This document shows positions 1 through 53,402 of a stretch of DNA of 58,287 nucleotides, one piece after another. Every line of letters begins with the position of its first letter. Position 1 is the first letter of the stretch. The stretch is from NCBI GenBank assembly GCA_018658715.1, contig JABHUQ010000066.1, forward strand, positions 1 to 58,287, read 5' to 3'. The position numbers and the translations under genes were made by a program. This stretch comes from Fidelibacterota bacterium. GTDB lineage: Bacteria; Fidelibacterota; Marinisomatia; Marinisomatales; UBA1611. The notes beneath the pieces are model-generated. The model had not been told where the DNA came from. It did not search any database and was given only the letters and a program-made list of their open reading frames with translations.

Positions 1-1113
1 GATGCGATTTCTGATGCTATATTAGATACATTATTAGAACAAGACTCAGACTCACGGGTCGCCTGTGAAACATTAGCAACCGAAGGTATGGTTGTGGTGG
101 CAGGAGAAATAACGACTCAAGGATTTGTGGATGTGGAACGTGTGGTTAAAGATACGTTAAACGATATTGGATATAATGATTATACAGCAGGGATGGACCA
201 GAAAAATGTAAAGGTCACGTCTGCTATTCAAGAACAATCCAAAGAAATATCTCAAGGGGTAAGTCAATCATCTACAGAAGAGCAGGGGGCTGGGGACCAA
301 GGGCTAATGTTTGGTTATGCGTGTAATGAGACACCAGAACTCATGCCATTACCCATCCAAATTGCACATCGTTTAACAGAAAAATTAACTGAAGTTCGAA
401 AGAATGGAACTCTCCCTTGGCTTCGCCCAGATGGAAAATCCCAGGTGTCTGTACAATATGTCGATGGAAAACCAACACGTATTAGTCAGGTGGTCATTGC
501 AACTCAACATGAAGATATGTTAAACACTTATGGGTCAGAAGAAGCCGAAAATGCATTCGTAAAATCAGAAGTCATTAAACATATCATATTACCTGTATTG
601 GGAAAATATGAATTCCCATACGATGAAGGTTTTATCGTAAATGGAACGGGGCGATTTGTCCATGGTGGTCCTTCAGCCGATACAGGTTTAACCGGTCGAA
701 AAATTATTGTAGACACGTATGGTGGCTATGCTCCCCATGGTGGAGGTGCTTTTTCTGGGAAAGATCCATCCAAGGTAGATCGATCGGCGACTTATATGGC
801 ACGATATATCGCAAAAAATATTGTTGCAGCAAAATTAGCAGATAAATGTGAAGTTCAATTATCATACGGTATTGGTGTGGCAGAACCAACATCTGTTTAT
901 GTAAAATCGTTTGGTACGAGTGATATGTCCGATGAATCATTAACAGATTTAGTAAAAAAACACTTCCCACTTAAACCGGGTGAAATTATCAGCCATTTAG
1001 ATTTAAAATATCCACGGTATCGTCAAACGGCTGCTTATGGCCATTTTGGAAGAGAAGATGCATTATTTACATGGGAAAAAATAGATATGGTGGAAAAGCT
1101 AAAATCGCTGTAA
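1..1113 (+). CDS. metK: S-adenosylmethionine synthetase, 5' end cut off by the window
   Basis: Makes S-adenosylmethionine from methionine and ATP in the cytoplasm. The frame is open from base 1 and 370 residues are visible. By comparison with the E. coli enzyme only about the first 20 residues, including the HPDK motif, lie outside the window; the first internal ATG (base 88) is not the start. Visible family motifs are GAGDQGLMFGYA, the WLRPDGKSQV block, the phosphate-binding GGGAFSGKD loop, KVDRSA, and a C-terminal AAYGHFGR. The next gene on the same strand is ahcY, 105 bases on, which recycles the SAH left after methyl transfer. Together they form a methyl-cycle pair with an apparent SAH riboswitch between them. 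Confidence 0.97.
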   Translation, partial: DAISDAILDTLLEQDSDSRVACETLATEGMVVVAGEITTQGFVDVERVVKDTLNDIGYNDYTAGMDQKNVKVTSAIQEQSKEISQGVSQSSTEEQGAGDQGLMFGYACNETPELMPLPIQIAHRLTEKLTEVRKNGTLPWLRPDGKSQVSVQYVDGKPTRISQVVIATQHEDMLNTYGSEEAENAFVKSEVIKHIILPVLGKYEFPYDEGFIVNGTGRFVHGGPSADTGLTGRKIIVDTYGGYAPHGGGAFSGKDPSKVDRSATYMARYIAKNIVAAKLADKCEVQLSYGIGVAEPTSVYVKSFGTSDMSDESLTDLVKKHFPLKPGEIISHLDLKYPRYRQTAAYGHFGREDALFTWEKIDMVEKLKSL

Positions 1114-1128
1114 AATTCTGAACATTTA

Positions 1129-1187
1129 GGCCAAGGAACGTTGCGGTGAATCGCTTTCATCAGGCTTGGCTAAATCAACGACGTTCA
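1129..1187 (+). promoter_or_regulatory. Candidate S-adenosylhomocysteine (SAH) riboswitch
   Basis: The 105-base gap between metK and ahcY folds into the SAH-riboswitch layout. Helix P1 is GCCAAG (1130-1135) with CTTGGC (1165-1170). A hairpin pairs GGTGAA (1145-1150) with TTCATC (1156-1161) around a 5-base loop. A pseudoknot helix pairs GAACGT (1136-1141) with ACGTTC (1181-1186), downstream of P1. Family-like conserved blocks are GGAACGTTGC, CAGGCTTGG and AACGACGTTC, which correspond to GGAGCGCTGC, CAGGCTCG and AACGGCGCTC in proteobacterial examples, with paired G-C to A-T changes that keep the helices. The ahcY ribosome binding site GAGGAA follows at 1211-1216. The known class raises ahcY expression when SAH accumulates. 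I see no clear terminator or anti-SD partner, so the switching mechanism is open. Confidence 0.85.
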
Positions 1188-1218
1188 TTTTGATTAATCA
1201 GAGAATCAGAGAGGAAAA

Positions 1219-2604
1219 ATGAACAATCCAACAATAGAAAACCAAGATTATAAAGTGGCTGACCTAAGTCTAGCTAATTTTGGGAGAAAAGAAATAGAAC
1301 TTGCAGAAGCAGAAATGCCAGCTCTCATGACACTTCGAGCAAAATATAAAGATTCCCAACCACTCGAAGGAGCCAACATATTAGGATGTATCCATATGAC
1401 CATTCAAACAGCTGTTTTAATGGAAACATTAGTGGATTTAGGCGCGAATGTGCGATGGTCATCATGTAATATATTCTCTACACAGGATCATGCAGCAGCA
1501 GCCATGGTGGCAGCCAATATTCCAACATTTGCATGGAAAGGGGAAACAGAAGAAGAATTCTTTTGGTGTATCGAACAAACTATTCTAAAAGATGGACAAC
1601 CCTGGAACGCCAATATGGTTTTGGATGATGGGGGTGATTTAACCCAGATGTTGCACGAAAAATATCCTGAAATGTTAGACCATATTCATGGTATTAGCGA
1701 AGAAACAACAACCGGTGTCCATCGATTATTAGAAATGGTAGACGAAGGATCCCTGAAAGTACCAGCCATTAATGTGAATGATTCTGTTACAAAATCCAAA
1801 AATGACAATAAATATGGCTGTCGTCATTCTCTTAATGATGCCATTAAACGGGGGACAGATATTTTATTATCGGGGAAAAAAGCACTCGTAATTGGATACG
1901 GTGATGTGGGGAAAGGATCTGCACAATCTCTCAGACAAGAAGGTATGATTGTAAAAATTTCTGAAATTGATCCCATTTGCGCTATGCAGGCGTGTATGGA
2001 TGGATTCGAAGTTATATCTCCTTATAAAAATGGAATAAATACAGAATCCATTGATGGAATTAATGAATCATTGCTTTCTTCAACGGATTTAATTGTAACA
2101 ACAACCGGTAACATTAATGTATGTGACCGTGCTATGTTACAGACACTAAAATCTGGTGCAGTTGTATGCAATATTGGACATTTTGATAATGAAATTGATA
2201 CACAATTCATGCGTGACAATTGGAAATGGGATGAAGTTAAACCCCAAGTTCATCGAATTTTCAGAAGTGAAAATAAGGATGATTATTTAATATTATTATC
2301 TGAAGGTCGATTGGTAAACCTTGGAAATGCTACAGGGCATCCATCACGTATTATGGATGGTTCTTTTGCGAATCAAGTGTTAGCACAAATGCATTTATTT
2401 GATACAAAATTTGCTAATTTGTCGTCTGAAGAAAAACAAAACAACATCACAGTAGAAGTACTTCCCAAAAAATTGGATGAAGAAGTAGCTGCTGGTATGG
2501 TGAGTGGATTTGGTGGTGTGTTAACGCAAATGACAAATGATCAAGCAAATTATATTAATGTTCCTAAAGATGGTCCCTATAAACCTGACGAATATAGATA
2601 TTAA
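1219..2604 (+). CDS. ahcY: Adenosylhomocysteinase (SAH hydrolase)
   Basis: Reversibly splits S-adenosylhomocysteine into adenosine and homocysteine with bound NAD, relieving product inhibition of methyltransferases. It is full length at 461 residues. Motifs seen: the substrate-domain DGGDLT, the [17 protein letters not shown] catalytic block with its lysine, the NAD-binding GYGDVGKG, the ATGHPS segment, and the C-terminal YKPDEYRY typical of the family. The ATG follows GAGGAA at a normal distance. It lies downstream of metK on the same strand with the SAH-riboswitch candidate between them, so its expression could be raised separately from metK when SAH builds up. Confidence 0.98.
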
Positions 2605-5800: not shown

Positions 5801-5853
5801 TGAGTGGTAACAACTTAGTTGGCTCTCACTTTGGAAATAGAGGAAAACAATAA
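2824..5853 (+). CDS. Very large predicted surface lipoprotein with C-terminal Kre9/KNH-like Ig domain
   Basis: A 1009-residue protein of unknown role. The N-terminus is basic and hydrophobic with a lipobox LLSGC (Cys31), so it should be lipidated and placed in the outer membrane. The body is rich in Asp, Ser, Thr and short hydrophobic strands, with repeated D-S-(A/V) and S-D-S-V-(I/S) phrases, suggesting stacked beta-sandwich folds, but I recognise no catalytic motif. From about residue 883 to 990 it resembles the Kre9/KNH-like Ig fold: VITWPNGGDTLY, an ILWNT strand, and GSYSWTP. Its stop overlaps by one base (TAATG) the start of a predicted outer-membrane barrel protein, so the two are probably co-translated and may work as a pair. 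No enzymatic function can be assigned. Confidence 0.85.
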   Translation: MKHNPSCSSRRKHFGVQYLAGVLSLLLLSGCDFETSEKFEMPTWFVDLKIPLVQTRYSLDGIVDSVNIFPTDDGMGMQLVFEGDLPSQSIGEDNLQAQFPGGYLDTEIEPTEIPGIDLGDFAIPSTPINMNIPVVLYGIPYVDTTYNESNPLTWDGATFYMPPAEDREISAENWNTMVGVFNSTVDSILSSVLVELDLGFSEIDVASDPQIIEGIEALVVANNESSQFITSIGNQGLSKNLIQATAGLYTGKYEITDSLAHHEEIPTIGTNVTYADTTPLSSARLRQLLQINLGFKLDSADVESGESVTIYANDSMAVNIALNMNIPSLDSADVSIAETVLEIPKPDMALASSEGAEGGETSISIFQAMLKTEGVDNTANRLVISDLASTFPFDINFKMNFQNFAPPSGSDSVIIETVLSKGNVFDRDFDLKGYSFQSTQYPDEPIDKMELALDVSIPEQVASIPLDGSSLGGLGLNVRMYSMEFESLEAFVYMGFPSVTQTMENMPQGFTGMMMTDVRIQFIMYSQIKLPVKLGIDMIGVDTFGDTTTLCVNVDSIGYPINDTDTAMTVIELNKYGTLTEIYNSKSDSAPSWSNQVLSNENCANIIELLSVNPVHLIVESESRVDGRGTIEIGKAIGGAFRLEAPFEVMMAPMTFISAVETPIEEFDHETRNRIRSSLIQAELTSNITNALPFGAELSILMSNLTIFPSDRTAEMLGVLRDSLVSQQGWDPTDSLYIVDSCLDLDPDTSDIHIFNVMTDFSECLEGLPYLVRQSSSGTDSVIAYVDTLWKFILPDPESFYEEGDSSGFPSGMVHEPGSGTFNSTLDSNRIFLLTGFGDHYVAPRFHLNGTDSNSVFMTTLDYLDINSFITFRLSNTGMMNAAEPELVITWPNGGDTLYADQTYEILWNTYGDVSTINLDYSTSENPELNNSEYWSPIIQGIDNMGSYSWTPGETSGFPSTHDNIRLRLSKGDGTIRDMNGYYIHIRPGMGRMSGNNLVGSHFGNRGKQ

Positions 5854-7244
5854 TGAAAAAAATCATTCTTTCCTTTATCTTAATTGTGACTTGCACCTTT
5901 GGGCAAACAAAGCGAGATGCCAGAGTTGTTGGTTTAGCTGGAACGTATACAACAATTGCTGATGGTATTTTTTCTGTCGGGTATAATCCGGCTTTAATTG
6001 GATTCCAGCAACATAAACCATTCCAATGGCAATTATTCGGATTTGATACAGGCGTTATTGGCAATTTTATTTCATTTGAAACCATTGCCGAATACAGTGG
6101 TGATACTTTATATACTGCCGATAAAGATAAATTATTTGAAAATTTTGAAGATGCAGGTGGTTTAACTTTTTTCCAAGATTTCCATCTTCCAATCCCAGCA
6201 TTAAATTTCACTTCTGGAAATCTTGCATTTACCAGCAATGCTATTTTTCTATCTAATTTTAAATTGCCCATCGGACTACTAGAAATGATGATGTATGGAA
6301 ATGCAAATAAACCAGAATTGGATATGACATTAGGATACGAAATATTGGGCTTAAATGAATATGGATTAACATTTGCAATTCCACTTAAAAACGTGTCTAC
6401 AGGTGTAACACTGAAATATTTACAAGGTCTCTTTTATATGGGGATCGATCCGGAAACTAGTTATGCTAATCTTATTACAGATGATAAGGGATTATACGGT
6501 TCAGGCAGGTATCTTCTTCGACAAGGAATGGGTGGAGCAGGATTTGGATTAGATATTGGAATTGTTACAAAAGAATTTCAAGGATGGACATTTGGCTCAT
6601 CCTTGATTAATGCTATTGGAACCATTGCTTGGAATAAAACAAATAGTGTCAATGATGATGGACCCAGTATTACAGTGCCTGGTATTTACCCTTTTACTTG
6701 GGAAGGAGAAGAATTAGGCCCAAATGAAGCAGTATTATATACATATAAAATTGATACTATTCGTGCGGATAAATTATCTCAGGATTCCTTATTTTATAAT
6801 AATTCTGAAATTATTTTAGATACAACGAATACAGGAGAAGGGCGTGTTTTCGAGACTCGTTATCCTGCTACATTCCGAATGGGATTATCAAAAAGAACAG
6901 AAACATTTATTTTTGCCAGTGATTTGGTAACTGGTTTTATCAATGAATATTATTCTATAGCTAAATGGCGATGGTCTCTCGGTGCAGAATGGACAAAGTT
7001 GGATAATGTACCTGTTCGGTTTGGATATAGTTGGGCTGGAGGCGATCTCCGAGAATTGTCCATGGGTATTGGTATTCATAAAGGACCTATCATTTTTGAT
7101 TTAGGATTTGCCTTTAGGAATGGTGTTTGGATTAGTTCTATGCGTGGATTCAACTTTTCTTTAGGACTCACTATTACAAGTCCGAAATCTCGAAAACCGT
7201 TAAAACCTGGTCAAAAACGAAAATCGAATAAACGTAAAAAATAA
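5853..7244 (+). CDS. Predicted outer-membrane beta-barrel protein (DUF5723-like)
   Basis: 463 residues with a classical signal peptide ending near TFGQ (residue 18). The mature N-terminus reads RDARVVGLAGTYTTIADG followed by YNPALIG, the pattern seen in outer-membrane proteins of the DUF5723, PorV and FadL-like kind in FCB bacteria. The rest alternates short amphipathic strands with turns, and the C-terminal third has aromatic-rich strands (WRWSLGAEW, VPVRFGYSW). The end is strongly basic (KSRKPLKPGQKRKSNKRKK). The start overlaps the stop of the lipoprotein gene (TAATG), so the pair is translationally coupled. The function is unknown; a PorV-type role in secretion is possible but not supported by any specific motif. 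Confidence 0.75.
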   Translation: MKKIILSFILIVTCTFGQTKRDARVVGLAGTYTTIADGIFSVGYNPALIGFQQHKPFQWQLFGFDTGVIGNFISFETIAEYSGDTLYTADKDKLFENFEDAGGLTFFQDFHLPIPALNFTSGNLAFTSNAIFLSNFKLPIGLLEMMMYGNANKPELDMTLGYEILGLNEYGLTFAIPLKNVSTGVTLKYLQGLFYMGIDPETSYANLITDDKGLYGSGRYLLRQGMGGAGFGLDIGIVTKEFQGWTFGSSLINAIGTIAWNKTNSVNDDGPSITVPGIYPFTWEGEELGPNEAVLYTYKIDTIRADKLSQDSLFYNNSEIILDTTNTGEGRVFETRYPATFRMGLSKRTETFIFASDLVTGFINEYYSIAKWRWSLGAEWTKLDNVPVRFGYSWAGGDLRELSMGIGIHKGPIIFDLGFAFRNGVWISSMRGFNFSLGLTITSPKSRKPLKPGQKRKSNKRKK

Positions 7245-34948: not shown

Positions 34949-36343
34949 TCATACCTCGGCATTGACCGTTGATAAATGTTGAATATATTTTTCACTATAA
35001 CGCCAAATGTTTCCTGCGCCTAAGGTTATTACTAAATCTCCGGGTATCACTAAATTGTCTAGCGCCAGAATAACATCATCTAAATCTGGGACATAAGACA
35101 CCTGTGCGTGTCCACTATTTATACATTCTTTATAAATCATTTCTCCTGTAATACCAGGTAAAGGTTTTTCGCGAGCTGGATAAATATCTGTAATAATAAC
35201 AATATCACTCGTAATTAATGCTTGACCAAATTCTCTGAAAAATTCTTGTGTCCGTGAGAATAAATGCGGTTGAAAAACAGAAATAAGACGTCGATCCCAA
35301 CCAGCTTTAGCAGCATTTAAAGTAGCCAATACTTCTGTTGGATGATGCGCATAATCGTCAACAACCATAATATTATTTTCAATACCTTTTAACTCAAACC
35401 GTCGTCTAACTCCTTCGTAGGAATGGATTCCATCTTTGACAGTTTCAAAATCTAGTCCCATTTCTAACCCGATGATAACTGCTGCAAGTGAATTTAATAT
35501 ATTGTGTTCACCAGGTACATTTAATGTGATATCACCTATAATCGAATTATGATGTTTAATAAAATATGTTGAAGAGAATGCATCAAAAGATAAATTCACT
35601 GCTTGATAATCAGCGCCATCAGAAAGTCCATAAGTTGTTACTGGACGCGTTATTTTTGGTAAAATTTCAAAAAGAGCAGGGGAGTCCATGCATACTATTA
35701 CTTCTCCATAAAATGGCACTGCTTGTGCGAATTGCAAGAAGGTATCTTGCAAATCCTGTAAATCATTATAACAATCTGTATGCTCTAATTCAATATTAGT
35801 AATGACGCCAATGGTAGGTTTTAGAGCTAAGAAGCTTCTATCAAATTCATCTGCCTCCACAACAATTATATTACCATCACCTAATTTAGAATTAGAATCT
35901 AAACTTTTAACGAGTCCGCCTACGACAAGGGTTGGGTCTTTTTTACCATGGGCAAGAATACTTCCAATCATCGATGATGTAGATGTTTTTCCGTGTGTAC
36001 CGCCTACACCAATACTTGTTTCTTTCATTGAAATTAATTCACCCAGCATTTCAGCTCGTCGAATGACAGGGATTCCTTTTTGATGCGCCATTACAATTTC
36101 AGGATTTTCTTGTGGGACCGCACTTGAATAAACAACAGCATCTGCATGATTAATGTTATCTGGGTCATGTCCAATTGCAACCGAAATACCTAATGATTGT
36201 AATCTTTGAACATTATCAGATAAATGTAAATCAGAACCAGTAATGTCGAATCCAAGATTTAATAGTAATTCAGCAATTCCACTCATACCAATGCCACCGA
36301 TACCAATAAAATGGATTTTTGATACTTTTCTAAAGACGGTCAT
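34949..36343 (-). CDS. murC: UDP-N-acetylmuramate--L-alanine ligase
   Basis: Adds L-Ala to UDP-MurNAc. 464 residues. N-terminal IHFIGIGGIGMSGIAELL binds the nucleotide-sugar, GVGGTHGKTSTSSMIG is the ATP P-loop, and VVDDYAHHPTEV lies in the C-terminal domain. The ATG overlaps the murG stop as ATGA. Confidence 0.97.
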   Translation of the reverse strand: MTVFRKVSKIHFIGIGGIGMSGIAELLLNLGFDITGSDLHLSDNVQRLQSLGISVAIGHDPDNINHADAVVYSSAVPQENPEIVMAHQKGIPVIRRAEMLGELISMKETSIGVGGTHGKTSTSSMIGSILAHGKKDPTLVVGGLVKSLDSNSKLGDGNIIVVEADEFDRSFLALKPTIGVITNIELEHTDCYNDLQDLQDTFLQFAQAVPFYGEVIVCMDSPALFEILPKITRPVTTYGLSDGADYQAVNLSFDAFSSTYFIKHHNSIIGDITLNVPGEHNILNSLAAVIIGLEMGLDFETVKDGIHSYEGVRRRFELKGIENNIMVVDDYAHHPTEVLATLNAAKAGWDRRLISVFQPHLFSRTQEFFREFGQALITSDIVIITDIYPAREKPLPGITGEMIYKECINSGHAQVSYVPDLDDVILALDNLVIPGDLVITLGAGNIWRYSEKYIQHLSTVNAEV

Positions 36344-37443
36344 TTGGTAATCTCCAGAATGTTATCTACAATATCGCTTGTTGCATTTGGTTTGCCTAAT
36401 TGACCTGCTGCTTCACTCATTATATTTAATTGACTCTGGTTATTGATGACACCTAGAATAGCTCTTGTGAAATCGCCTTGTGATAGAGATTTTTCAAATA
36501 ATATTTGAGATGCTCCTGAATTAACCATTGCTTGAGCATTTTTAGTTTGATGGTTGCCAGCTGCACCTTCAAATGGAATAAGAATACTTGGTTTTTTACA
36601 TACTGTAATTTCAGCCAAAGTGAGTGCGCCACTTCTGGAAATGATTAAATCTGCAAGAGCATATGCGCCTGCCATATCATTAATAAATGGATAAACACGT
36701 ACATTCTCAGAATCAAATTGTTTATAAGATTCAAATGCTACGTCGCCGGTTTGCCATAATATTTGGATACCAGACTCCAATAGCGAATCAATTGCTTGAA
36801 ACATTTGGGTATTTAAATAAGCCGACCCTTGACTACCACCAAAAAGGAATACTGTTTTTTTATCTTTATTAAGAGAAAATGATTTTAGCGCACTTTCTTT
36901 ATTCCCATTTGCAATACCAGCCCTAACAGGGTTGCCCGTTAAAATGGGTTCTGCTTTTAAAAATTCAACAGAATCCTGGAAAGCTACACAAACAGCTTTT
37001 GCTTTTTGAGCGAACCATCGGGTTGTAATCCCAGGAAATGAATTTTGTTCTTGTAATAAAATTGGGATAGGGTCTTTTTCCCCAGATGCTACATATAAAG
37101 GCAAAGCGCTCGCATAGCCACCAGTTCCAATAACAATTTGGGGTGAAAATTCTCTAATGAGCGATTTAATTTTAATTATGGATTGAATGATGCGACCTGG
37201 TAATAATATATTCCGCCCTAAACTTCTAAAACTCAAGTCTCTTTGAAGTCCGCGGATAGGAACCAATGTATGCCAGACACCCTTTACCGGAAAAACTTTA
37301 GCCTCCATACCAAAAGTTGATCCAACATAATGTACCTCTGCATCTTGGTGTCTAGATTTTATTTCATCTCCAATAGCTAATGCTGGGAATAAATGGCCAC
37401 CTGTTCCACCACCTGCAATCATGATTCGTAATGCATTAGCCAC
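36340..37443 (-). CDS. murG: Lipid II synthase (GlcNAc transferase) MurG
   Basis: Adds GlcNAc to lipid I on the inner face of the membrane. 367 residues. IAGGGTGGHLFPALAIG near the N-terminus, LLQEQNSFPGITTRW, FGGSQGSAYLN and SRSGALTLAEI are diagnostic. The start is GTG, overlapping the ftsW stop by 8 bases (GTGGCTAA). The next in-frame ATG would cut into the first strand and is rejected. Confidence 0.96.
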   Translation of the reverse strand: MANALRIMIAGGGTGGHLFPALAIGDEIKSRHQDAEVHYVGSTFGMEAKVFPVKGVWHTLVPIRGLQRDLSFRSLGRNILLPGRIIQSIIKIKSLIREFSPQIVIGTGGYASALPLYVASGEKDPIPILLQEQNSFPGITTRWFAQKAKAVCVAFQDSVEFLKAEPILTGNPVRAGIANGNKESALKSFSLNKDKKTVFLFGGSQGSAYLNTQMFQAIDSLLESGIQILWQTGDVAFESYKQFDSENVRVYPFINDMAGAYALADLIISRSGALTLAEITVCKKPSILIPFEGAAGNHQTKNAQAMVNSGASQILFEKSLSQGDFTRAILGVINNQSQLNIMSEAAGQLGKPNATSDIVDNILEITK

Positions 37444-38584
37444 TATATGCTGGGCTCCAACCTTTTTTATGGGAAACAGATCGTCTAGCTTGACTGATAT
37501 TCAATAAAATACCAATCATTGCCAGATTAATAACCATTCCAGATCCACCATAACTAATCATAGGCATTGGTAGACCTGTAACGGGAAAAATTCCTGTTAC
37601 TACTGCTGCATTTGTAAATGCGTAAAGAATAATATTAAATGAAATACCAATAGCTAAAAAAACACCAAAAGGATCTGTGCATTGTTTTGCTATTTTAATC
37701 CCTCGGTGAAATATGAATACGAATAGAACTAATACAAGGATTGCTCTAATAAAACCAAGTTCTTCCCCTATAATTGCGAAAATAAAGTCTGTATGCGGGG
37801 TGGGGAGGAAAAGGTTTTTTTCCATACTATTTCCTAGCCCAAGGCCAAACCAACCGCCATTCCCAAGACTAATTAAAGATTGATCTGCTTGATAGTCTGC
37901 TGCTGGATTAGTACCAATTCCAAACCAAGATAAGATTCTCGCTAATCGATATGGTTTAGATAAAAGTACCGGTATAGCAACTAATAAGCCTACAGCCCCT
38001 GAAAATGATAAGTGAGATATTTTGGCGCCTGAAATAAAAATAAGAGCAATTCCAATGAAACCAATCATAGCTGCAGTACTAAAATCTGGTTGAATAACAA
38101 TTAACCCCATTACCAATGAAAGAACGCCTAGGATGGGCAATAATCCAGTTTGGAAATCATGGATTTGAGACCTTTTTTTATCTAAATAATAGGAAGTGTA
38201 AATCAATACGGCAAATCGGGCAATATCTGAAGTCTGTACTGAGAAAGAACCAATATATACCCATCGAGCAGGAGAGTGGTTTCCCTTCAATAAGAATAAA
38301 AATTTGGTTAATACTAATAGGAAAATAGCGCCAATCATTATCCCAGGAGCGAATCGTTTCAAAATTCTATAATCGACAGAGAGTGTGATAAACATAATGA
38401 CTACACCAATTAGTAATCGTTTTAAATGAGCTTCAAGATAAAGCATATTAGTTCGATTATTTGATTCTAATAAAGATATGGGCGAACTAGCACTAAAGAG
38501 CATAATTGTTCCAACACCTGCTAATAGAAGAAGGCAAATAAGTAATGCACGATCATATTTTTTTATAATGACATCTAGATTCAT
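37436..38584 (-). CDS. ftsW: Septal peptidoglycan polymerase FtsW
   Basis: SEDS-family glycosyltransferase working with FtsI. 382 residues and about ten membrane helices. LMLFSASSP near the first helix, the NHSPARWVYIGSFSVQTSD loop, LIVIQPDFSTAAM, and GLPMPMISYGGSGMV are family hallmarks. I chose ATG 38584, which gives ATGA with the murD stop; the open frame extends 9 codons further. Position between murD and murG supports FtsW over RodA. Confidence 0.95.
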   Translation of the reverse strand: MNLDVIIKKYDRALLICLLLLAGVGTIMLFSASSPISLLESNNRTNMLYLEAHLKRLLIGVVIMFITLSVDYRILKRFAPGIMIGAIFLLVLTKFLFLLKGNHSPARWVYIGSFSVQTSDIARFAVLIYTSYYLDKKRSQIHDFQTGLLPILGVLSLVMGLIVIQPDFSTAAMIGFIGIALIFISGAKISHLSFSGAVGLLVAIPVLLSKPYRLARILSWFGIGTNPAADYQADQSLISLGNGGWFGLGLGNSMEKNLFLPTPHTDFIFAIIGEELGFIRAILVLVLFVFIFHRGIKIAKQCTDPFGVFLAIGISFNIILYAFTNAAVVTGIFPVTGLPMPMISYGGSGMVINLAMIGILLNISQARRSVSHKKGWSPAYSG

Positions 38585-39963
38585 TTTACCCATTCCAATT
38601 CTTTTACCCAATTTTTAAACATTTTCCCTCGTTCTTCGAAATGATCAAATTGATCAAAACTGGCACAGCCAGGAGATAATAATACTACATCTCCTGAGCT
38701 GGCCAGGTTTTTAGCTGTCACTACCGCATCCCTGAGATCCAAAATAGATTCAGATCTCACCGCATCCCCAAAAGAATCGGTAATTTCGTGACGAGCTTCT
38801 CCATACGAGATAACCCGTTTCACTTGGTTTACTTTAGTATGTGGAAGGAGATTATGAAAATCAGCCCCTTTATTTCGACCACCAAGGATCAAAATTAAAG
38901 GTTGTTTAAAACTGCTTAATGCAACAATAACAGATTCAAGATTCGTTGCTTTAGAATCATTGATATACGTTACGCCATCAATTTCGGTGACATATTCTAA
39001 ACGGTGTTCGACTCCAGTAAACTCTGAAACCGTTTTTGAAATATGCGATAAAGAAATCCCAAACTCAAACGAGAGGGTAGAGGCAGCTATTATATTTTCA
39101 ATATTATGCTGCCCAGGAATTTTAATTTGGCTCAATCCAATAAATGACTCTTGGTCGGGTCCATAAATTTTTGTTTCATTCATTCGGAATAATCCGGATT
39201 GATGTATCGTGCTAAAGGGAATAACTTTTGATTTATGATTTACAAATGCATGTTGTAATTCAAGATCATTCTGATTGTAAATAACGGTATCATCTTCTGT
39301 TTGATTTTCTGCCATTCTCAATTTGCAATGAATATAATTGTCTAATGTACCATGTCTATCAAGATGATCAGGTGTTATATTCAGGAATAAACTATAATTT
39401 GGATGAAAATGATAGATAGACTCCATTTGGAAGCTAGATATTTCAAGGATATATACTCTTTTAAGGTCTGGATTAATCGTATCAGCCAATACTTCTTGTG
39501 AAAATGGAATACCAACATTTCCACAAATGGTCCCATGGATTGTTTCAGTTTTAAAAATTTTACCTAAGATATTTACTGTTGTAGTTTTTCCGTTTGATCC
39601 TGTAACAGCAATAATCGGAAATTTTGAAAACCAATAAGCAAATTCAATTTCACCAACAACTGGAATTCCACATTTGATTGCTTTTAAAATAACTCGGCTA
39701 TCTTTTGGAACTCCTGGTGATATCACCAATAAATCTGCATTATAAATACGATCTGAATGACCACCTTCTTCTCCTGAGATATTTAATAATTTCAATTCAT
39801 TTAGAGTATGGCGATTTAATTCAGATGAACTAGCATCACTAATAAAAACCTGTGCGCCATGATGCTGAGCCAATTTAGCAGCTGCGATACCACTTCGGCC
39901 AAGCCCTATAATGGATATAGCTTTTCCTGAAATATTAATATTATTTTTATTTTGGATATCCAT
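38581..39963 (-). CDS. murD: UDP-N-acetylmuramoylalanine--D-glutamate ligase
   Basis: Adds D-Glu to UDP-MurNAc-L-Ala. 460 residues. N-terminal ISIIGLGRSGIAAAKL, P-loop VTGSNGKTTTVNIL, NITPDHLDRH and YINDSKATN mark the family. The ATG follows the mraY stop with no gap. Confidence 0.96.
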   Translation of the reverse strand: MDIQNKNNINISGKAISIIGLGRSGIAAAKLAQHHGAQVFISDASSSELNRHTLNELKLLNISGEEGGHSDRIYNADLLVISPGVPKDSRVILKAIKCGIPVVGEIEFAYWFSKFPIIAVTGSNGKTTTVNILGKIFKTETIHGTICGNVGIPFSQEVLADTINPDLKRVYILEISSFQMESIYHFHPNYSLFLNITPDHLDRHGTLDNYIHCKLRMAENQTEDDTVIYNQNDLELQHAFVNHKSKVIPFSTIHQSGLFRMNETKIYGPDQESFIGLSQIKIPGQHNIENIIAASTLSFEFGISLSHISKTVSEFTGVEHRLEYVTEIDGVTYINDSKATNLESVIVALSSFKQPLILILGGRNKGADFHNLLPHTKVNQVKRVISYGEARHEITDSFGDAVRSESILDLRDAVVTAKNLASSGDVVLLSPGCASFDQFDHFEERGKMFKNWVKELEWVK

Positions 39964-41067
39964 CTAACGAATCTTAAATGTGGTTAAAGAAAAAAGAGCT
40001 AACAAAAGGCCAATAATCCAAAATCGAATGACAACTTTAGATTCAGGCCAACCAGATAATTCAAAATGATGATGGATAGGTGCCATTTTAAAAAGTCGTT
40101 TCCCTTCAGGATATTTGGATTTTGTCCATCGAAAATACCCAACCTGTAAAATGACAGATACCGCCTCCCAAACGAAAACGCCTCCGATAATAAATAATAA
40201 TAATTCTTTCTTTAATAGTACGGCGAGTGTCCCCAATGCTGCACCAGATGAAAGGGAACCAGTGTCTCCCATAAATATATCCGCAGGGTTTGCATTAAAC
40301 CATAAATACCCCAAGCAAGCACCAGCCATTGCTGACGCAAATACTGTTAATTCACCAGCTCCGGGTAAGTATAAAATATTTAAATAATCTGAAAAATCAA
40401 CACGCCCAGAAATATATGCAACAGCAGCAAAAACAGTAAATGCTATAGCTAAAAGTCCAGCAGCAAGTCCGTCTAAACCATCTGTTAAGTTGACGGCATT
40501 AGACGTTCCTGTTATAACTAGGATTACAATTAACGGATACATTAAACCAAAGTCAATTTCAAAATTCTTAAAAAATGGAATGGATGTTTTTGATGCGATA
40601 TGGGCAAACTCGGGTGTATTTAATATCCAAAAACTGACAATAATACCTAATATTATTTGTCCTGCCATTTTATATCGAGCAATGAGTCCTGCTTTCGATT
40701 TTTTAATCACTTTTAAGTAATCATCAAGAAATCCAAATACTCCCATCCATAAAGTGGATATAATAATAATTTGAATGAATGTGTTACTTAAATCTCCAAA
40801 AAGAAAGGTTGGTATAAGTACAGCACTTAAAATAAGAAGCCCACCCATTGTAGGTGTTCCTTTTTTCTTTAAATGACTATCGGGCCCTGTTTGGCGAATC
40901 TCTTCACCAATTTGATGACTTTGTAGTATGTGGATAATCCAGGGCCCAATAATAAAGCTTATGACTAATGCAGTAATAGCTGCTGATGCAGAACGAAAAG
41001 TGATGTATTCAAATACATTTAAAAATGAAAATGATTCTTTAACAGATGTTAGGAGTTGGTATAACAT
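39964..41067 (-). CDS. mraY: Phospho-MurNAc-pentapeptide translocase
   Basis: Loads the precursor onto undecaprenyl phosphate to form lipid I. 367 residues and about ten membrane helices. KKGTPTMGG, the Asp pair in GFLDDYLKV, NAVNLTDGLDGLA, ANPADIFMGDTGSL, and MAPIHHHFELSGW with its His cluster are all intact. The start overlaps the murF stop by one base. Confidence 0.98.
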   Translation of the reverse strand: MLYQLLTSVKESFSFLNVFEYITFRSASAAITALVISFIIGPWIIHILQSHQIGEEIRQTGPDSHLKKKGTPTMGGLLILSAVLIPTFLFGDLSNTFIQIIIISTLWMGVFGFLDDYLKVIKKSKAGLIARYKMAGQIILGIIVSFWILNTPEFAHIASKTSIPFFKNFEIDFGLMYPLIVILVITGTSNAVNLTDGLDGLAAGLLAIAFTVFAAVAYISGRVDFSDYLNILYLPGAGELTVFASAMAGACLGYLWFNANPADIFMGDTGSLSSGAALGTLAVLLKKELLLFIIGGVFVWEAVSVILQVGYFRWTKSKYPEGKRLFKMAPIHHHFELSGWPESKVVIRFWIIGLLLALFSLTTFKIR

Positions 41068-42407
41068 TAGCTTTGGAATACTCCCGAAATAATTTTTTCC
41101 ATTGCCATTCCACGAGAACCTTTGATTAAAATTTTATCCCCTGATTGTAATCCTTTTTTCAAAGCATCAATAAGTGATTCTTTTGCTTCAAAATGTTGGT
41201 GAAAGCCACGTGTAATAGCTTGATCTGTATAAATAGTTTCATCACCAACCGTATAAACTGCATCTAATCCAATTTTTGTGCATTTCTGCCCAATCTTCTC
41301 ATGCTGTCGTTGTGAACTTTCTCCAAGTTCGAACATATCACCAAAAACGAATATTCGTCTTCCATTTCCACTGAATGCTTTTAAATAATCCAATGCAGCT
41401 AAACTTGAAGATAAATTTGCATTATAAGTATCATCTATAACGGTAATATCATTGAATTGTTTTACTTGGCATCGACCAGCAGGGGGCGTAAATGTATGAA
41501 TCTTTTTACGAAGTGTGTCCCAGCTAATCCCCAATGTAATAGCAATGGATGCTGCTGAAATCATATTTTTAATAAAGGAGAAATTTTGAGATTCAGTCTG
41601 AACTTCTTCAGCATCGATCGTGAGTGTTAAATTACCATTCTGTTCTTCATGTATATCAACAGGGTAGTCACAATCCGCCGTAAGACCAAATGAAACAACT
41701 TCCCCATATGTAGGGATAGATTGTACTTTTTCATCAGCTAAGTTGACAAATGAAATCCCATTTTTAAGAGATGTAAATAATGCCCCCTTTGTTTGAGCGA
41801 TCACTTCAATACTTCCAAATCCAGCTAGATGTGCAGGAGCTATATTTGTAATGAGTCCGTGCGTTGGTTCTGCAATTTCACATAAATATGCAATATCTCC
41901 AGGTTGATTAGCACCCATTTCTAATATTGAAATGCTATGGGTTCCATTTAGCGTTAAAAGGGTGAGGGGAAGTCCAATAGATGTATTGAAATTCCCCTGC
42001 GTGGCGTGCACTTTAAAATTTGACTCTAATATATGAGATAATAATTCTTTTGTAGATGTTTTTCCATTAGACCCAGTGATACCAATAATGGGTATATCAA
42101 ATTGTCGTCTCCAATGCCGAGCAATTCGCCCAATTGTCTTTAGAGGGTCTCCCACAACAATTTGTTGCATTTTTGAAATTGATTGATCTGAGTTACTAAC
42201 TAATGCTGCCGTTGCGCCTAAGTTATTTACTGTTTCAAGGAAACGATGGCCATCAACTCGTTCACCCGCTAAAGCAATATATAAATCACCTTCTTGGCAT
42301 TCTCGGCTATCTGTTACAATACCTCGTACAGGAGTTTTTAGGAATTTCCCAGTAATTTTAGAAAATATTTGGCCAAATTGCTCGGGGCTTTTTATATCTA
42401 TTCTCAT
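41067..42407 (-). CDS. murF: UDP-MurNAc-tripeptide--D-Ala-D-Ala ligase
   Basis: Adds D-Ala-D-Ala to complete the pentapeptide. 446 residues. P-loop [37 protein letters not shown] and DTYNANLSS are typical. D-Ala-D-Ala ligase (ddl), which makes its substrate, is not in this cluster. ATGA overlap with murE. Confidence 0.96.
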
Positions 42408-43855
42408 CGATAGTTCTCAATTATTTCTAAATCGGAATAAGAAATTTTGATCCCATTTATGTCCTGATAATTTTCCCGACCTTTTCCTAAGACTACTGTT
42501 ACATCTCCCGCCTTCAAGCGATTTAATGCATCTTTCAAGCCAGATGACCGATCTTGATATGCGGTAAAATGATCACTCAAAAACCCTGAAACAATTTCGT
42601 TTAATATTTGATTAGGATTTTCAGTACGTGGATTGTCTGGTGTTACAAAACAATGGTCACTGTATTTTTCAGCAATTCTTGCCATTTCGGGGCGTTTTGA
42701 TTTGTCTCTGTCACCTCCTGCTCCAAATACAGTAAAAATACTTTTCCCTACAGGTACAATCTCTTGAATCGTCGATAATACCTTTTCATAAGCATCAGTT
42801 GTATGAGCATAATCAATTATAACGACACCACCTTTCCGCAAAGTGATGGTTTCCATGCGACCGGCTACACTTTTCAATCGTGTAATACCATTAGAAACAT
42901 TATTTGGTTCAACTCCGAGTGCATGGGCTGCCGAAACGGCGAGTAAAATATTTTCTTGGTTGAAAGATCCAATAAGAGATGATTTGATTGAGTATTCTTG
43001 AGTACCTGCCATGACAATGCCTTCAATACCATCTAACTCAGATGAAGCTTGAGTAAAATGAATATCTTTTTCTTCATGACGAGAAACAGTTAAGGTAGGA
43101 GCAGACGAAATTTCTAATAATCTTTTTCCACTAGATTCATCAACATTTATAATAGATGTTGCATCTAAACCCAGCATTGAAAACAATTTTGATTTCGCTA
43201 AAAAATAATCTTCCATCGTATGATGGTAATCCAAGTGTTCTGGAGTAAGATTTGAAAATATAGCAATATTAAATTGAACATCTGCTACACGGTATTGAGA
43301 TAACGCATGCGATGATACTTCCATTACAACATGAGAGAAACCTGCGTCAACAAGAGATCGGAATGTTTGATGCAGGGTAATGGAGTCGGACGTTGTTAAA
43401 TTATTTTCTTTGGGAAAACCATCGGCAATTAGTCCAAGGGTTCCCATTTGTGCAGTTTGGATACCAGCTTCAATTAAAATAGACGTAAGGATAGATGCGA
43501 TGGTTGTTTTTCCATTCGTTCCAGTTATGCCAATAATCGTTAATTCTTTACTCGGTTGTCCATAATATAAATCAGCCAATACTGATGCAGCTCTTCGTGG
43601 GTTTGCTACTTTAACCTGCGGAACTGATAATGACCCTAAATCGCGTCCATTTGATACAATCGCGGATGCACCCTTTTCAATGGCGTCATGAACAAAATCA
43701 TGTCCATCTAAATGAGTTCCAGGGATAGCAATAAATAAGTCCCCCGGCACAACGGTGTTTGAGTTGATTTTTATACCAGTAACAGGAACGTTTGGCCAGT
43801 TATTGAGTTCAGTTGGAACGAGTTGATCTATAAGTGTATGAAGTGATTGATTCAT
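42404..43855 (-). CDS. murE: UDP-MurNAc-L-Ala-D-Glu--meso-2,6-diaminopimelate ligase
   Basis: Adds the third stem-peptide residue. 483 residues. P-loop [25 protein letters not shown] and [14 protein letters not shown] are present. DNPR at 407-410 is the recognised determinant for meso-DAP over lysine, so the wall is DAP-type, as expected for a Gram-negative. ATGA overlap with ftsI. Confidence 0.97.
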
Positions 43856-45828
43856 TTTAATCCTACTCTACATACGGTACCAGATGATATATAAGTTCCA
43901 GGACTTGGGCTTTGCCATACAACACTTCCTGATCCAGTTAATTTATATTTCAAATTAGATTCACGAAGTGTTGTCATTGCCTTTCGCATACTCATACCCC
44001 GCAATTCTGGCATGACATATTTCATAACACTTTTTGTGGACAATGATATAGGGAGGCTTGACGCATTCTCCACAACCAATTTTTTTGAATCAACAAGAAT
44101 TACATCAACCTTATCTTTCGGATGGACGTAATGCTTTTTAGATGGAGGCGTAATTTTATCATCCATACTGATTACACGGGTCATGACTCGATTAAATATT
44201 TTCGCAGCCCCAATTCCACCCCAGTGATATCCTGCTTTAGGTTCATCAAGGACAAAAACGCCTAATAATTGAGGATTATCTGCTGGAAGGAATCCTACGA
44301 AATTTGATATAAACTTTGAATCAGAATATTTCCCATCTATATACTTTTGTGCTGTTCCTGTTTTACCTGCAACATTCCACCCCGAAATTTCTGCTCCAGT
44401 ACCAGTACCTGTTTTTACAACTCTACATAACATATTTGTAATTTCAGACATTGTCTTACCTGTGGCTACTTTCCGCGTTATTTCAGGATTTTCTTTCCGA
44501 AGTATTTCTCCATCGGGGCTCATTATTTGACGTGTGATTTTAGGAACAACTAAAAAACCACCATTAGCAATAGAAGAATATGCAGAAGCTAATTGAAGGG
44601 CAGTGACTCCCACTTCATGCCCCATGGAAATTTGACCAAGTGATATATGGCTCCAACGATCAATGGGTTTCAATGTACCTGATGACTCACCTTTAAATGA
44701 AATTCTAGTTTGAGAACCAAAACCAAATTCGCGAGAATATTTATATAATTCTTCCTGCCCAAGCCGTTCTGCAATTTTAATGATTCCAATATTGCTTGAG
44801 TGTTCAATGACTTGTGGAAAAGTCAGTAGTCCATATTCTTCATGGTCACGAATTGGAATATTCTTATACATAAAGGATCCGTTTTCGCAATTAAACTCTT
44901 CTGTTAAATCAACAACCTTTTGTTCAAAGGCTGCGACCGCAGGAACAACTTTGTATGTTGAGCCTGGTTCAAACTGGTCAGTTAAAGCACGATTCCTGTG
45001 AAAATCAGCTGGTGATTCTGAAGACTGATTATTGTTAAAACCAGGTTCAGTTGCCATGGCAAGTATTTCACCTGTTTGAGGGTCCATAATAATGCCAGTT
45101 GCAGTTTTAGCGCCTGTTTCCTTAAGTCTACGATTTAACTCTTCTTGCAATATAGACTGGTATTCAAGATCCAATGTTAATTGAATATCATTTCCATCTT
45201 GCTCAGGCGTATAAGGAAGATTAGGTGAAAATTGTGTTTTTCCATTCCCATATTTTGACTTTATAATGCTCCCTGATTGACCTTTCAATTCCTGGTTAAA
45301 ATCTTTTTCTAATCCAGAAATACCATCATCATCAACACTGGTATAACCAAGAACTTGAGATGCCATCGTTTCATGAGGATAGTATCGTCTATATTCTCGC
45401 TTAATTTTGAATCCCTTTATTTGAGTGGCAATCAGTGTGCCCACAACATCCCGACTCAAGTTCCGCTCTAAATAGACAAATTTTCCTTTTCTATTTAATT
45501 TAGTTAAATAATAATCAATACCTTTCCCAGTTCGATTATGAATAAGTTCTGCAAGCTCCTTTTTATTCTGAACTTTTTGGGGATTGGCTTCTAATGTGTA
45601 GTGTATAATATTTCGAGTTAAGGGGCGACCGTCTCTATCATATATATTCCCACGATTTGCTGGAATAGTTTTTTCTATTAATCCTTGCTTTAAGCCTATC
45701 TTATGATATTCTTTACCATTTAATACCATTATATCGAATAAGCGGAAAGATAATCCAGCCCAGCTTATAAGCACAATGCTTGAAATCACTGTTACTCGAT
45801 TTCGATATTTCAGGTATGTTTTTGTCAT
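43852..45828 (-). CDS. ftsI: Septal transpeptidase (FtsI/PBP2-type) with C-terminal PASTA domain
   Basis: Cross-links septal peptidoglycan. 658 residues. One membrane helix near 13-35, then the dimerisation domain with [12 protein letters not shown]. The transpeptidase motifs are S290-x-x-K293 (GSTYK), S344-S-N346 and K489-T-G. A single PASTA domain occupies about 597-658. A terminal PASTA on the division PBP is usual in Firmicutes and is also seen in some Gram-negative FCB lineages. ATGA overlap with ftsL. Confidence 0.95.
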
Positions 45829-49578: not shown

Positions 49579-52500
49579 TTATCTAAATTTTGCAATTCGA
49601 CCAATGGACGATACTTTTTTGCCATTAGCTTCCGCTTGAATTCTATATAAATATACGCCATTTGCTAATTGTCCACCAAAAGCATCATTACCATTCCAGT
49701 CAATGGTATGATAGCCAGATGTGTATTCAGTGGGAATAAATTCCATAATTTTTCTGCCACCCAATGTAAAGATTGCTAATGTTATATCTGCGGTCAGGTT
49801 TAATTCAAATGTGAATTGAGTTTCATTAGAAAAAGGGTTTGGATAATTAAAAATATTATATAATCCTAAAGATTGTAATTCACTTATGTTTAATGAAAGA
49901 GTCTTTTCTGATGGATTATTTGCGCTATCCCATGCTTTAATAGTGAATTTAACGGTAGATTCATTTGATGAAACTTGGTATGGGATAGTCCCAGTAGTAA
50001 TGCTATTTATATCGTATATAAAATCATTGGTAATATTTTCGCTACTTTGGCTTTGTAAATCAGTTAACATTATTTCATGACCAATTTCATTTGTTAAGTT
50101 TATTCCCATAGCATCTGATAGTCTAATGACGATTGGATTTTCTTTGTCAACGTGGTCTCCTGTAGAAATGATGCGTCCATCATGAGCTTCAAATGATATA
50201 ATCGGACCTTGAGCATCAGATGTAGAATTTCCACCTCTTAAAGGAATATTGTTTTTATTTCCTAACGCTTCACCATTACCATCATTCTCATATATATATA
50301 TATTCATTTCAGCATTCTCATTTGAATATGAAATATCGAGTGGAATACGAAAATCTCCATTTAATTGATTTCCTGAAAATGAAAATTGACCTCTGAATAG
50401 AAGTGGCCCAGGAAGTGAATATGACACAGACTGTGTTGTTGAAGCAATATTGTATTCACGCGTAACCATTCTTTTCGCATCTCTCAACGCCACAATACCT
50501 GTACCTGATTTATCGATAGCGGATTGTTGCCCTATAAAAGATCCTAAGGCTAATGTTTCGATTGTATCAGGAGAAATAGAAGAAATAGTTAATGTATCTG
50601 AAGGGATTGGGAGTTTCATAGCAGGGTCGCCAAATAATGTAAAATATTCTCCTTCACCATATCCTGTTTTAATATTCCTCAGAATAGAACCAATGGGTAA
50701 AGTTGTTACACCACCTTCAGGAAAAATTGTTGAAAAAAGATCTTCAGAATAATTTGCATTTCCAGATACAGTAATCTTTCGAGTGGTACTAATAACAGCT
50801 ACTGCCGCATTCATTGGAGTTCTAATAAGTTCTTCTGAGAAAGATTCAATATGTAAGTCGTCAAAATGCCCAAAGGAACATGTCCCAACGATCCATACAG
50901 GATATTTATTCCCTGTATTCATTAATTGAATATCACCTCGATCTAAATAGAGTAATCGTTCTTGTGCTAGTTGAGTTGATGATCCATGTCCAATATAATT
51001 GATAATTGCAGTTCCTTCATTCAAAGCATTTATTACAGCTTGAGTGGCTTCGGGTTTTACAACACCATAGACGGAAGCGTCACTTTCTTCGGGGAATTCT
51101 AACATATATAATTTATTGATTTCAATTGTGGGAGGAATTATAGAAGCTAAATCTTCTGAATTATTAGTATGGCTTTTTCCTGTTCCAATTTCCCAAGCAT
51201 CTTTTTCTGGCCGAGCCCCATCATCTGCAATTAATGTAACTCGTTGACGCCATGGCCCAAGTTCAGGAGAAGATTCTGCATCAATTAATTTATCAATATA
51301 ATCTTCAAATTCACTTTTATTTCGCGCTGGGAACCGTCCGAGTGCTATTTCAGGTATAGAACCATATAATGTTGCAAGTCGATCATCTGTAGCCCAAGAA
51401 AATGAAGTTCCAACTTCAATGGTTGGAATAATATTCCCAGATTCCCCAGAAATATTTCTATAGTCATAATCTGCATCTCCAATTAAAAATACTGTATATG
51501 GGGTAGGGCTTCCCCAATGCTCTTGTGTCCATTGAATAAAAGCTCTAATAGCCATCGGGTCCTGATTCCCGGCAGAAAATTCAGTATAAATATCTTCAAT
51601 ACTTGCATACATTGCTGGATATCTTAATTCTAATAGTGGTTGTGCGCTTTCGCGGTAAGATTCTGGACCGATAATAACGTGATCTGCGGTTACATTATTT
51701 GTTCGTAAACCATGAAAAGTCATTAAACCTTCATTGGTAATTGTTGATACTGTGTCTAGTTCATCGGATTGAAACACAACAAAATGACTAGGAGATGCGA
51801 ATAATGTTTGTGTATCAAATGTCGTTAAATCCGAATTCCCTTCTAATATCATAGATTTTGGATTAATAGCATCTGAAATATCCCAAACATGGGTTGAGCT
51901 AGAAGGGGCATCATCAAGGACAAATCTTACTTTTGTCCCAAGAACTGGGGAATAAAAATCATACGAATCATTTACAGATAAGTGACGTCCATATTGAAGA
52001 TTAATGAAATCAAAATAAGGTTGTGAATTACTATTACTTGATGAATTAACTGCATAAAAAAGATTCGAACCATTTGACAACTCAGATCCAGAAATAATAA
52101 AGTTAGCCGCATGGGACCCGATAGAAGACCAAGAAGCATAGGCGCGATGGAGCCCAATTTCAACAGTTTTGTAGTAACAATAAATTTTATGATTTGTGTT
52201 ATGGTAGGATGTTGGTGTCAGTTCACCACCTAAAAATCCCATGGTAATCCCAGCATCGATTGTAGTTTCGGGTGTTGGTATATTTATATTTAAGGAATAG
52301 GTACCATTGTGAGATATTGGGCTTGATGCCCATCCTAGTCCTGAGTGAGCGGGATTAATCATATCGATCTCTTGATGTACATAACATAATCCATAATCGA
52401 TTGATAGAGTAATATTTTCTGGTATGGCTACATCGGCCACCCTCTGCCCGCGCTGAGAATTATCATTTGGGATGAGTAAATAATATGTATTTTGTGTGAA

Positions 52501-53316
52501 ATATAAATTTTGCTTAAAAATGACAGTTCCACTAGAAACGTTATATCCACTGGGACCATTACTATAAAAAATAATTTCATCACCGGAATCGAATGAACCA
52601 TCATTCTCTCCAGAAATAGATATACCTATTTCGACCAAATTTTCTTGAATAGATTGGTTTGTAGCTTGAGTTTTTGACCTTCCAAGATCAGGTCCAGTAA
52701 ATAGCATGAACGACCTTGGGTCTACGGAAGATAATTGACTATATACGGATGAAATAGTATTGTAGGACAATTTCGCCATCCCATCTTTTTCAATTTTAAA
52801 TGATAGCCATGTGCCAGCCGGATGGGAACTAGATTTCATTCTTTTTGTAGCTTTAGGTTTAATCCAATTTTGTGCATAGTCCCAATTCATAATTTGCGAA
52901 GATAATAAGCGAATTTGATTTTGAGTGGGTGGTCTGAATTGATTTTGCACATGATCAAAATCAAATTGAATTTGAATCCTTTTATAATATTGATTATTTC
53001 CCTTTACAGGAGAAACAACAAAGGTAGCAGTCTCTAAAGATTGAACAATCTGTTGCTGAGCCCAAAATTCGGGTACACTTTGAAGAGAAGAACAATCAAA
53101 TGGGCAATCAGTTGGTTCTAAATATTGGACGGATGCTTGTGGAAAAGATTTGTTTGGGAGACCAATCAAAAAAGATTGGTATTGTAAATCATCCAATGTT
53201 TGTACATGGGTTATTACATCAAAGGAAAAGTGCTCAGAATCATTCTGATGAATATTTTGGGCTCTGCTAGCAAGACCCAATTGGAAAAAAGCTACTATAA
53301 TGAGAAAATATTTCAT
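49579..53316 (-). CDS. porU: Gingipain-type C25 cysteine peptidase, probable T9SS sortase PorU
   Basis: 1245 residues from ATG 53316 (the longer frame starts at a TTG). A signal peptide ends near ASRAQ. The C25 domain covers about 500-910: catalytic His777 in NYIGHGS and Cys813 in VGTCSFGHFD, closing with LFGDPAMKLPIP. The C-terminal 90 residues start NYPNPF and end GVYLYRIQAE, the FlgD/T9SS type A sorting fold. PorU removes such C-terminal signals and attaches cargo to the cell surface. The length and layout fit PorU better than a secreted gingipain, but no other T9SS gene is adjacent. Confidence 0.82.
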   Translation of the reverse strand: MKYFLIIVAFFQLGLASRAQNIHQNDSEHFSFDVITHVQTLDDLQYQSFLIGLPNKSFPQASVQYLEPTDCPFDCSSLQSVPEFWAQQQIVQSLETATFVVSPVKGNNQYYKRIQIQFDFDHVQNQFRPPTQNQIRLLSSQIMNWDYAQNWIKPKATKRMKSSSHPAGTWLSFKIEKDGMAKLSYNTISSVYSQLSSVDPRSFMLFTGPDLGRSKTQATNQSIQENLVEIGISISGENDGSFDSGDEIIFYSNGPSGYNVSSGTVIFKQNLYFTQNTYYLLIPNDNSQRGQRVADVAIPENITLSIDYGLCYVHQEIDMINPAHSGLGWASSPISHNGTYSLNINIPTPETTIDAGITMGFLGGELTPTSYHNTNHKIYCYYKTVEIGLHRAYASWSSIGSHAANFIISGSELSNGSNLFYAVNSSSNSNSQPYFDFINLQYGRHLSVNDSYDFYSPVLGTKVRFVLDDAPSSSTHVWDISDAINPKSMILEGNSDLTTFDTQTLFASPSHFVVFQSDELDTVSTITNEGLMTFHGLRTNNVTADHVIIGPESYRESAQPLLELRYPAMYASIEDIYTEFSAGNQDPMAIRAFIQWTQEHWGSPTPYTVFLIGDADYDYRNISGESGNIIPTIEVGTSFSWATDDRLATLYGSIPEIALGRFPARNKSEFEDYIDKLIDAESSPELGPWRQRVTLIADDGARPEKDAWEIGTGKSHTNNSEDLASIIPPTIEINKLYMLEFPEESDASVYGVVKPEATQAVINALNEGTAIINYIGHGSSTQLAQERLLYLDRGDIQLMNTGNKYPVWIVGTCSFGHFDDLHIESFSEELIRTPMNAAVAVISTTRKITVSGNANYSEDLFSTIFPEGGVTTLPIGSILRNIKTGYGEGEYFTLFGDPAMKLPIPSDTLTISSISPDTIETLALGSFIGQQSAIDKSGTGIVALRDAKRMVTREYNIASTTQSVSYSLPGPLLFRGQFSFSGNQLNGDFRIPLDISYSNENAEMNIYIYENDGNGEALGNKNNIPLRGGNSTSDAQGPIISFEAHDGRIISTGDHVDKENPIVIRLSDAMGINLTNEIGHEIMLTDLQSQSSENITNDFIYDINSITTGTIPYQVSSNESTVKFTIKAWDSANNPSEKTLSLNISELQSLGLYNIFNYPNPFSNETQFTFELNLTADITLAIFTLGGRKIMEFIPTEYTSGYHTIDWNGNDAFGGQLANGVYLYRIQAEANGKKVSSIGRIAKFR

Positions 53317-53402
53317 TTTATCTTCATTCAAAATTTATACTAACTATTCATCACTTCGCATTGAAAACTGTCATTATGATTCTGTAACTTCCATGTCTTA
53401 TT

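Follow-up and report, generated by a model that had tools for sequence, protein, structure and literature searches.

Locus and class assignment

The window analyzed here, a stretch of 58,287 nucleotides (contig JABHUQ010000066.1) from a marine member of Fidelibacterota (Neomarinimicrobiota), begins inside metK, which is followed on the same strand by ahcY (Table 1). The sole Rfam match across the whole window fell between these two genes: the SAH riboswitch family RF01057, aligned over the full model (1-78) at 1127-1193 with a score of 41.0 bits, a margin of only 4 bits over the curated gathering score of 37 (E = 3.3e-4 for the window against all of Rfam; 3.3e-6 per genome against RF01057 alone). 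A search of the entire source genome returned this single copy, and the same search of 14 control genomes gave no RF01057 matches. The three conserved blocks lie in the order GGAACGTTGC (1135-1144), CAGGCTTGG (1161-1169), and AACGACGTTC (1177-1186). Thirteen bases separate the end of metK from the aptamer, which sits directly 5' of ahcY, an SAH-recycling gene, as expected for RF01057. By its sequence, then, the element is an SAH riboswitch, a further member of the RF01057 class, and presumably binds SAH selectively. The first-pass annotation had proposed this identity, the location between metK and ahcY, and the order of the conserved blocks; all three were confirmed by the covariance model match and the positions in the sequence. 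Its guess of an FCB-group host was also correct: NCBI taxonomy places Fidelibacterota (Neomarinimicrobiota) within that group, and a relative with the same metK-riboswitch-ahcY unit was deposited as “Candidatus Neomarinimicrobiota bacterium isolate SI037S2_bin13.”

Table 1. Features of the metK-ahcY region, in window coordinates
Feature	Position	Strand	Evidence
metK, native Neomarinimicrobiota copy, 5' end cut by window edge	1-1113	+	TIGR01034, 517 bits; MetK tree
SAH riboswitch aptamer	1127-1193	+	RF01057, 41 bits (gathering score 37)
P1 5' strand, GCCAAG	1130-1135	+	Pairs with 1165-1170; both-side changes in 3 of 6 pairs (40 sequences)
Pseudoknot 5' strand, GAACGT	1136-1141	+	Pairs with 1181-1186; 100% of cells paired, 2 pairs double-changed
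P2 hairpin, 1145-1150 with 1156-1161	1145-1161	+	Inspection of sequence; can be drawn in each of the seven Neomarinimicrobiota
P1 3' strand, CTTGGC	1165-1170	+	Partner of 1130-1135 in the 40-sequence alignment
Pseudoknot 3' strand, ACGTTC	1181-1186	+	Partner of 1136-1141 in the 40-sequence alignment
Start-codon mask strand, GTTCATTTT	1183-1191	+	Perfect complement of 1216-1224; overlaps pseudoknot 3' strand
Putative Shine-Dalgarno-like GAGAGG	1209-1214	+	Read from sequence
Masked start region, AAAATGAAC (AUG 1219-1221 and codon 2)	1216-1224	+	Conserved complementarity, folding
ahcY, SUP05/Thioglobus-type gammaproteobacterial copy	1219-2604	+	TIGR00936, 514 bits; AhcY trees

Elsewhere in the window, a run of about 10 G lies downstream of ahcY (2630-2650) in this AT-rich genome. 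An ordinary mur/fts cluster for peptidoglycan and division (Mur ligases, MraY, FtsW, MurG, and PBP) occupies 34949-45828 on the reverse strand, and a 1,250-amino-acid protein with a peptidase C25 (gingipain/PorU-like) domain is encoded at 49579-53331, also in reverse. Together with a PorV-like gene at 5853-7244, the latter fits FCB-type secretion.

Distribution and origin

RF01057 matches were found in 7 of the 245 genomes of the phylum, in two genera (g1 and g8) of one family, and in none of the other 82 sampled genera. A lineage-tuned covariance model run over the same 245 genomes recovered the same seven riboswitches; three extra weak matches (E = 4e-4 to 9e-3) were rejected because they overlapped long coding frames and had no Rfam support, and none lay near ahcY, metK, or metF. 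The riboswitch was present in 63 of the 83 genomes of the putative donor family (SUP05/Thioglobus, Pseudothioglobaceae) and in 114 of the 274 sampled genomes of that family's class, and in SUP05/Thioglobus it likewise stands 5' of ahcY with metK upstream.

The two genes flanking the riboswitch have different histories. The AhcY of the window is 87 to 90% identical to those of the other six riboswitch genomes and ~80 to 86% identical to those of SUP05/Thioglobus (~84 to 86% for the best outside relatives) but only ~45 to 48% identical to the native AhcY of close relatives, which has an extra segment. In the AhcY tree, the seven Neomarinimicrobiota copies formed one group, which joined SUP05/Thioglobus with strong support (100/97) and stood well apart from the native AhcY found in their own family; denser sampling gave the same clade. 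A monophyletic SUP05 was not rejected by the AU test (p 0.42); the donor lineage may thus lie either inside SUP05 or as its sister, and we do not claim nesting. The MetK of riboswitch-bearing genomes, in contrast, grouped with the phylum, and a mosaic metK was rejected, as no donor-like segment appeared along its length. Genomes with native and with foreign ahcY share a common order (metK, ahcY, a 1,000-amino-acid gene, a PorV-like gene, and an LptF/G-like permease); the two genes upstream of metK in g8 genomes are also the same as in native-ahcY genomes, whereas g1 genomes differ there. No riboswitch was found at the native metK-ahcY junctions of the phylum, and one genome of the same genus (G029) retains the native ahcY and has no riboswitch. 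The first-pass view of a riboswitch inside a metK-ahcY unit thus holds for its position, but metK followed by ahcY is the phylum's own arrangement and occurs there without the riboswitch.

From the foreign AhcY, the native MetK and gene order, and the riboswitch-free native junctions, we conclude that riboswitch and ahcY together displaced the resident ahcY at its own site: a piece of DNA carrying both passed from a SUP05/Thioglobus-like gammaproteobacterium to an ancestor of the seven genomes, where it was substituted for the resident gene immediately after the native metK. With a GC3 of 0.249, like that of host neighbor genes and unlike the donors' 0.29 to 0.36, ahcY has by this measure adapted to the host in base composition. 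Between the two genera AhcY is 88 to 89% identical versus ~74% for MetK, which makes a second transfer within the phylum likely. In one g8 genome (G018, locus L256), metK groups with genus g1 (85% identical to that of the window versus 74% for other g8), while the genes upstream of it are of the usual family type; here, a second transfer of metK, riboswitch, and ahcY within the phylum is likely. A phage route was considered and rejected: phage and viral ahcY were only 63 to 70% identical, and the viral contigs had no riboswitch. Separately, a Calditrichales MAG (WGCN01000187.1, L022) encodes an AhcY ~80% identical to that of the window and in the same clade, with no SAH riboswitch upstream; this may reflect an independent transfer that left the regulator behind or an error in binning the contig.

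Aptamer structure and conservation

Covariation was assessed in an alignment of 40 leaders from Neomarinimicrobiota and SUP05/Thioglobus genomes. P1 and the pseudoknot formed standard pairs in 99.6% of cells, a value that fell to 18 to 48% when one strand was slid by 1 to 3 columns as a control, and 5 pairs across the two helices carried double changes. One pseudoknot pair is G-C in the donors and A-U in the window, with G-U intermediates among the relatives. A P2 helix of 4 to 8 pairs could be drawn in all seven Neomarinimicrobiota despite differing sequence; its outermost pair in the window is doubtful, as it uses the conserved C1161. All three elements that the first-pass annotation had drawn, P1, the internal hairpin, and the downstream pseudoknot, were therefore recovered, with pairing retained among relatives. 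Its further statement, that the helices had shifted to A-T pairs while staying complementary, was half right: complementarity is kept, but most of the A-T richness reflects the AT-rich lineage of origin, and what is specific to the window is chiefly the change of the one pseudoknot pair from G-C to A-U, together with P2.

Among the seven Neomarinimicrobiota, identity was 94% in the riboswitch core, 100% in the mask strand described below, and 52% in P2, compared with 38% at fourfold-degenerate sites of ahcY. These values, with pairing intact, point to purifying selection on the riboswitch RNA.

Proposed masking of the ahcY start codon

A strand made up of the final four nucleotides of the pseudoknot 3' strand and the bases beyond them is complementary to the ahcY start region. 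The corresponding pairing in the donors is GCTCATTT with AAATGAG(C,T). Across the 40 sequences this mask helix was paired in 99.7% of cells versus 38 to 51% when slid. A matched change from C-G to U-A is present in all seven Neomarinimicrobiota (GCTC with ATGAG(C,T) in donors, GTTC with ATGAAC in recipients), and because the altered mask nucleotide has a second partner in the pseudoknot, the change links three strands. This covariation in the mask concerns one pair and probably arose only once.

In pseudoknot-free folding, the pairing probability of the AUG was 0.96 in the window and 0.96 to 1.00 in all 23 leaders; with the pseudoknot strands held, it was 0.05 in the window and 0.02 to 0.74 in the other leaders, many of which opened just partly (0.3 to 0.7), all values being computed without pseudoknot energy and without SAH. 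Of 100 shuffles of the window linker, 20 still reached the observed level of AUG pairing, a control that is weak because the shuffles keep the GTTC/GAAC core and that we do not count as proof. Leaders of other gammaproteobacteria often showed a predicted pairing between the sequence 3' of the pseudoknot and the Shine-Dalgarno or start region, so masking of the start region is probably common across the class.

Under the masking model, the riboswitch would be an ON switch whose effect is confined to translation of ahcY. Without SAH, the mask strand would pair with the start region and hide the start codon; as SAH accumulates, it would stabilize the aptamer, the pseudoknot would capture its 3' strand, the mask would open, and the freed AUG would allow production of AhcY to remove SAH, leaving the upstream metK unaffected. 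We infer the ON direction, the translational level of control, and cotranscription of ahcY with metK. That SAH tunes ahcY alone, as the first-pass annotation had suggested, is permitted by the position of the element after metK and before ahcY. Taken as a whole, we consider it probable that an RF01057 riboswitch and its ahcY came from a SUP05/Thioglobus-like donor, replaced the native gene in place, and act by SAH-dependent unmasking of the start codon.

Alternative explanations

The same riboswitch with the same transfer might instead act on transcription, through Rho or a terminator. Riboswitches often do so, and one lying within an operon could uncover a Rho site while ahcY goes untranslated; we nonetheless regard this as unlikely, since no terminator-like site was found in window positions 900-1400 and the complementarity that is conserved involves the start codon. 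A decayed remnant that has lost SAH binding could explain the score near the cutoff and the altered P2, yet the contrast between the core and the fourfold-degenerate sites and the intact pairing make it very unlikely.

Occurrence in two genera could also reflect an ancient vertical trait lost in most of the phylum. This is contradicted by the absence of the riboswitch from the other genera, from native ahcY leaders, and from the native-ahcY genome of the same genus, as well as by the AhcY tree, in which the linked gene is gammaproteobacterial beside a native MetK; such a history is highly improbable. Metagenome-assembled genomes can be mixed, and the riboswitch-ahcY piece might then belong to a gammaproteobacterium, but the unit occurs in seven assemblies, on contigs of 16 to 92 kb, with native metK upstream and native genes downstream wherever the contig continues, and the GC3 of ahcY matches its neighbors rather than the donors. 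Binning contamination is thus exceedingly improbable, and acquisition of the riboswitch with ahcY, followed by start-codon control, remains our preferred reading.

Relation to known systems and implications

SAH riboswitches have been recorded before ahcY and metF in beta- and gammaproteobacteria, with metK not controlled (PMC4239095), and in Mycobacteriaceae by presumed transfer (PMC3766115); the riboswitch of the window, placed after metK and spread by transfer, fits both patterns. It shares with the RF01057 ahcY leaders of beta- and gammaproteobacteria the covariance match, the conserved blocks, P1, P2, and the pseudoknot, and the site before ahcY, and differs from them in its Neomarinimicrobiota host, its short linkers, one A-U pseudoknot pair, and a location between metK and ahcY that it shares with SUP05. 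The first-pass expectation that the class would extend beyond Proteobacteria and Actinobacteria stands in that there is a new host phylum, but the extension came solely by horizontal transfer and into 7 of the 245 genomes. Among the papers searched, none named the SAH riboswitch and Marinimicrobia together; relative to the surveys cited above, the phylum is new for this riboswitch, and its route of arrival is well documented. The SAM-Chlorobi motif (RF01724) also accompanies metK-ahcY operons, in Chlorobi, and binding of SAM or SAH by it was not seen (PMC2864571). It resembles the present case as a candidate RNA element in an FCB-group metK-ahcY unit but is another RNA, lying upstream of the whole operon; RF01724 gave no match in the window, whose start inside metK puts that upstream region beyond its edge.

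The metK-riboswitch-ahcY units of SUP05/Thioglobus have the same riboswitch position and architecture, the same start-codon complementarity, and the closest AhcY, but their metK is gammaproteobacterial (50 to 56% identical to that of the window) and their start region reads ATGAGC/T rather than ATGAAC. A TATAAT-like stretch precedes the riboswitch in several of these units. In SUP05 leaders L010, L011, L014, L015, and L017, a TTGGTATAATA-like stretch lies between metK and the riboswitch, which suggests a private promoter in those leaders; no such stretch was seen in the window. Four SUP05-family genomes (G248, G541, G549, and G533; loci L153, L220, L224, and L229) have a second SAH riboswitch before metF, followed by a frame of 23 to 39 codons resembling the start of ahcY (e.g., MSNSPKKNNDFQIANLKLSGLINNYKLANTNLASIGEKK). 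This copy keeps both the start-codon mask and the ahcY-start fragment, and looks like a duplicated riboswitch plus ahcY start left as a leader peptide.

We tentatively suggest that the mobile unit may include the gene's own start, with the pseudoknot, the mask strand, and the first two codons evolving together. If true, this would explain both the joint movement of riboswitch and ahcY across phyla and the truncated ahcY N terminus beside the metF-linked copy in SUP05 relatives. SUP05 and Neomarinimicrobiota share marine low-oxygen waters, so the transfer also hints at exchange between the two groups. Together, these analyses offer a clear example of a riboswitch that moved between phyla along with its gene and was precisely swapped into an existing gene pair; they indicate that patchy riboswitch distributions can arise by transfer of the regulated gene, and they provide a natural three-way covariation along with a testable model of start-codon masking.
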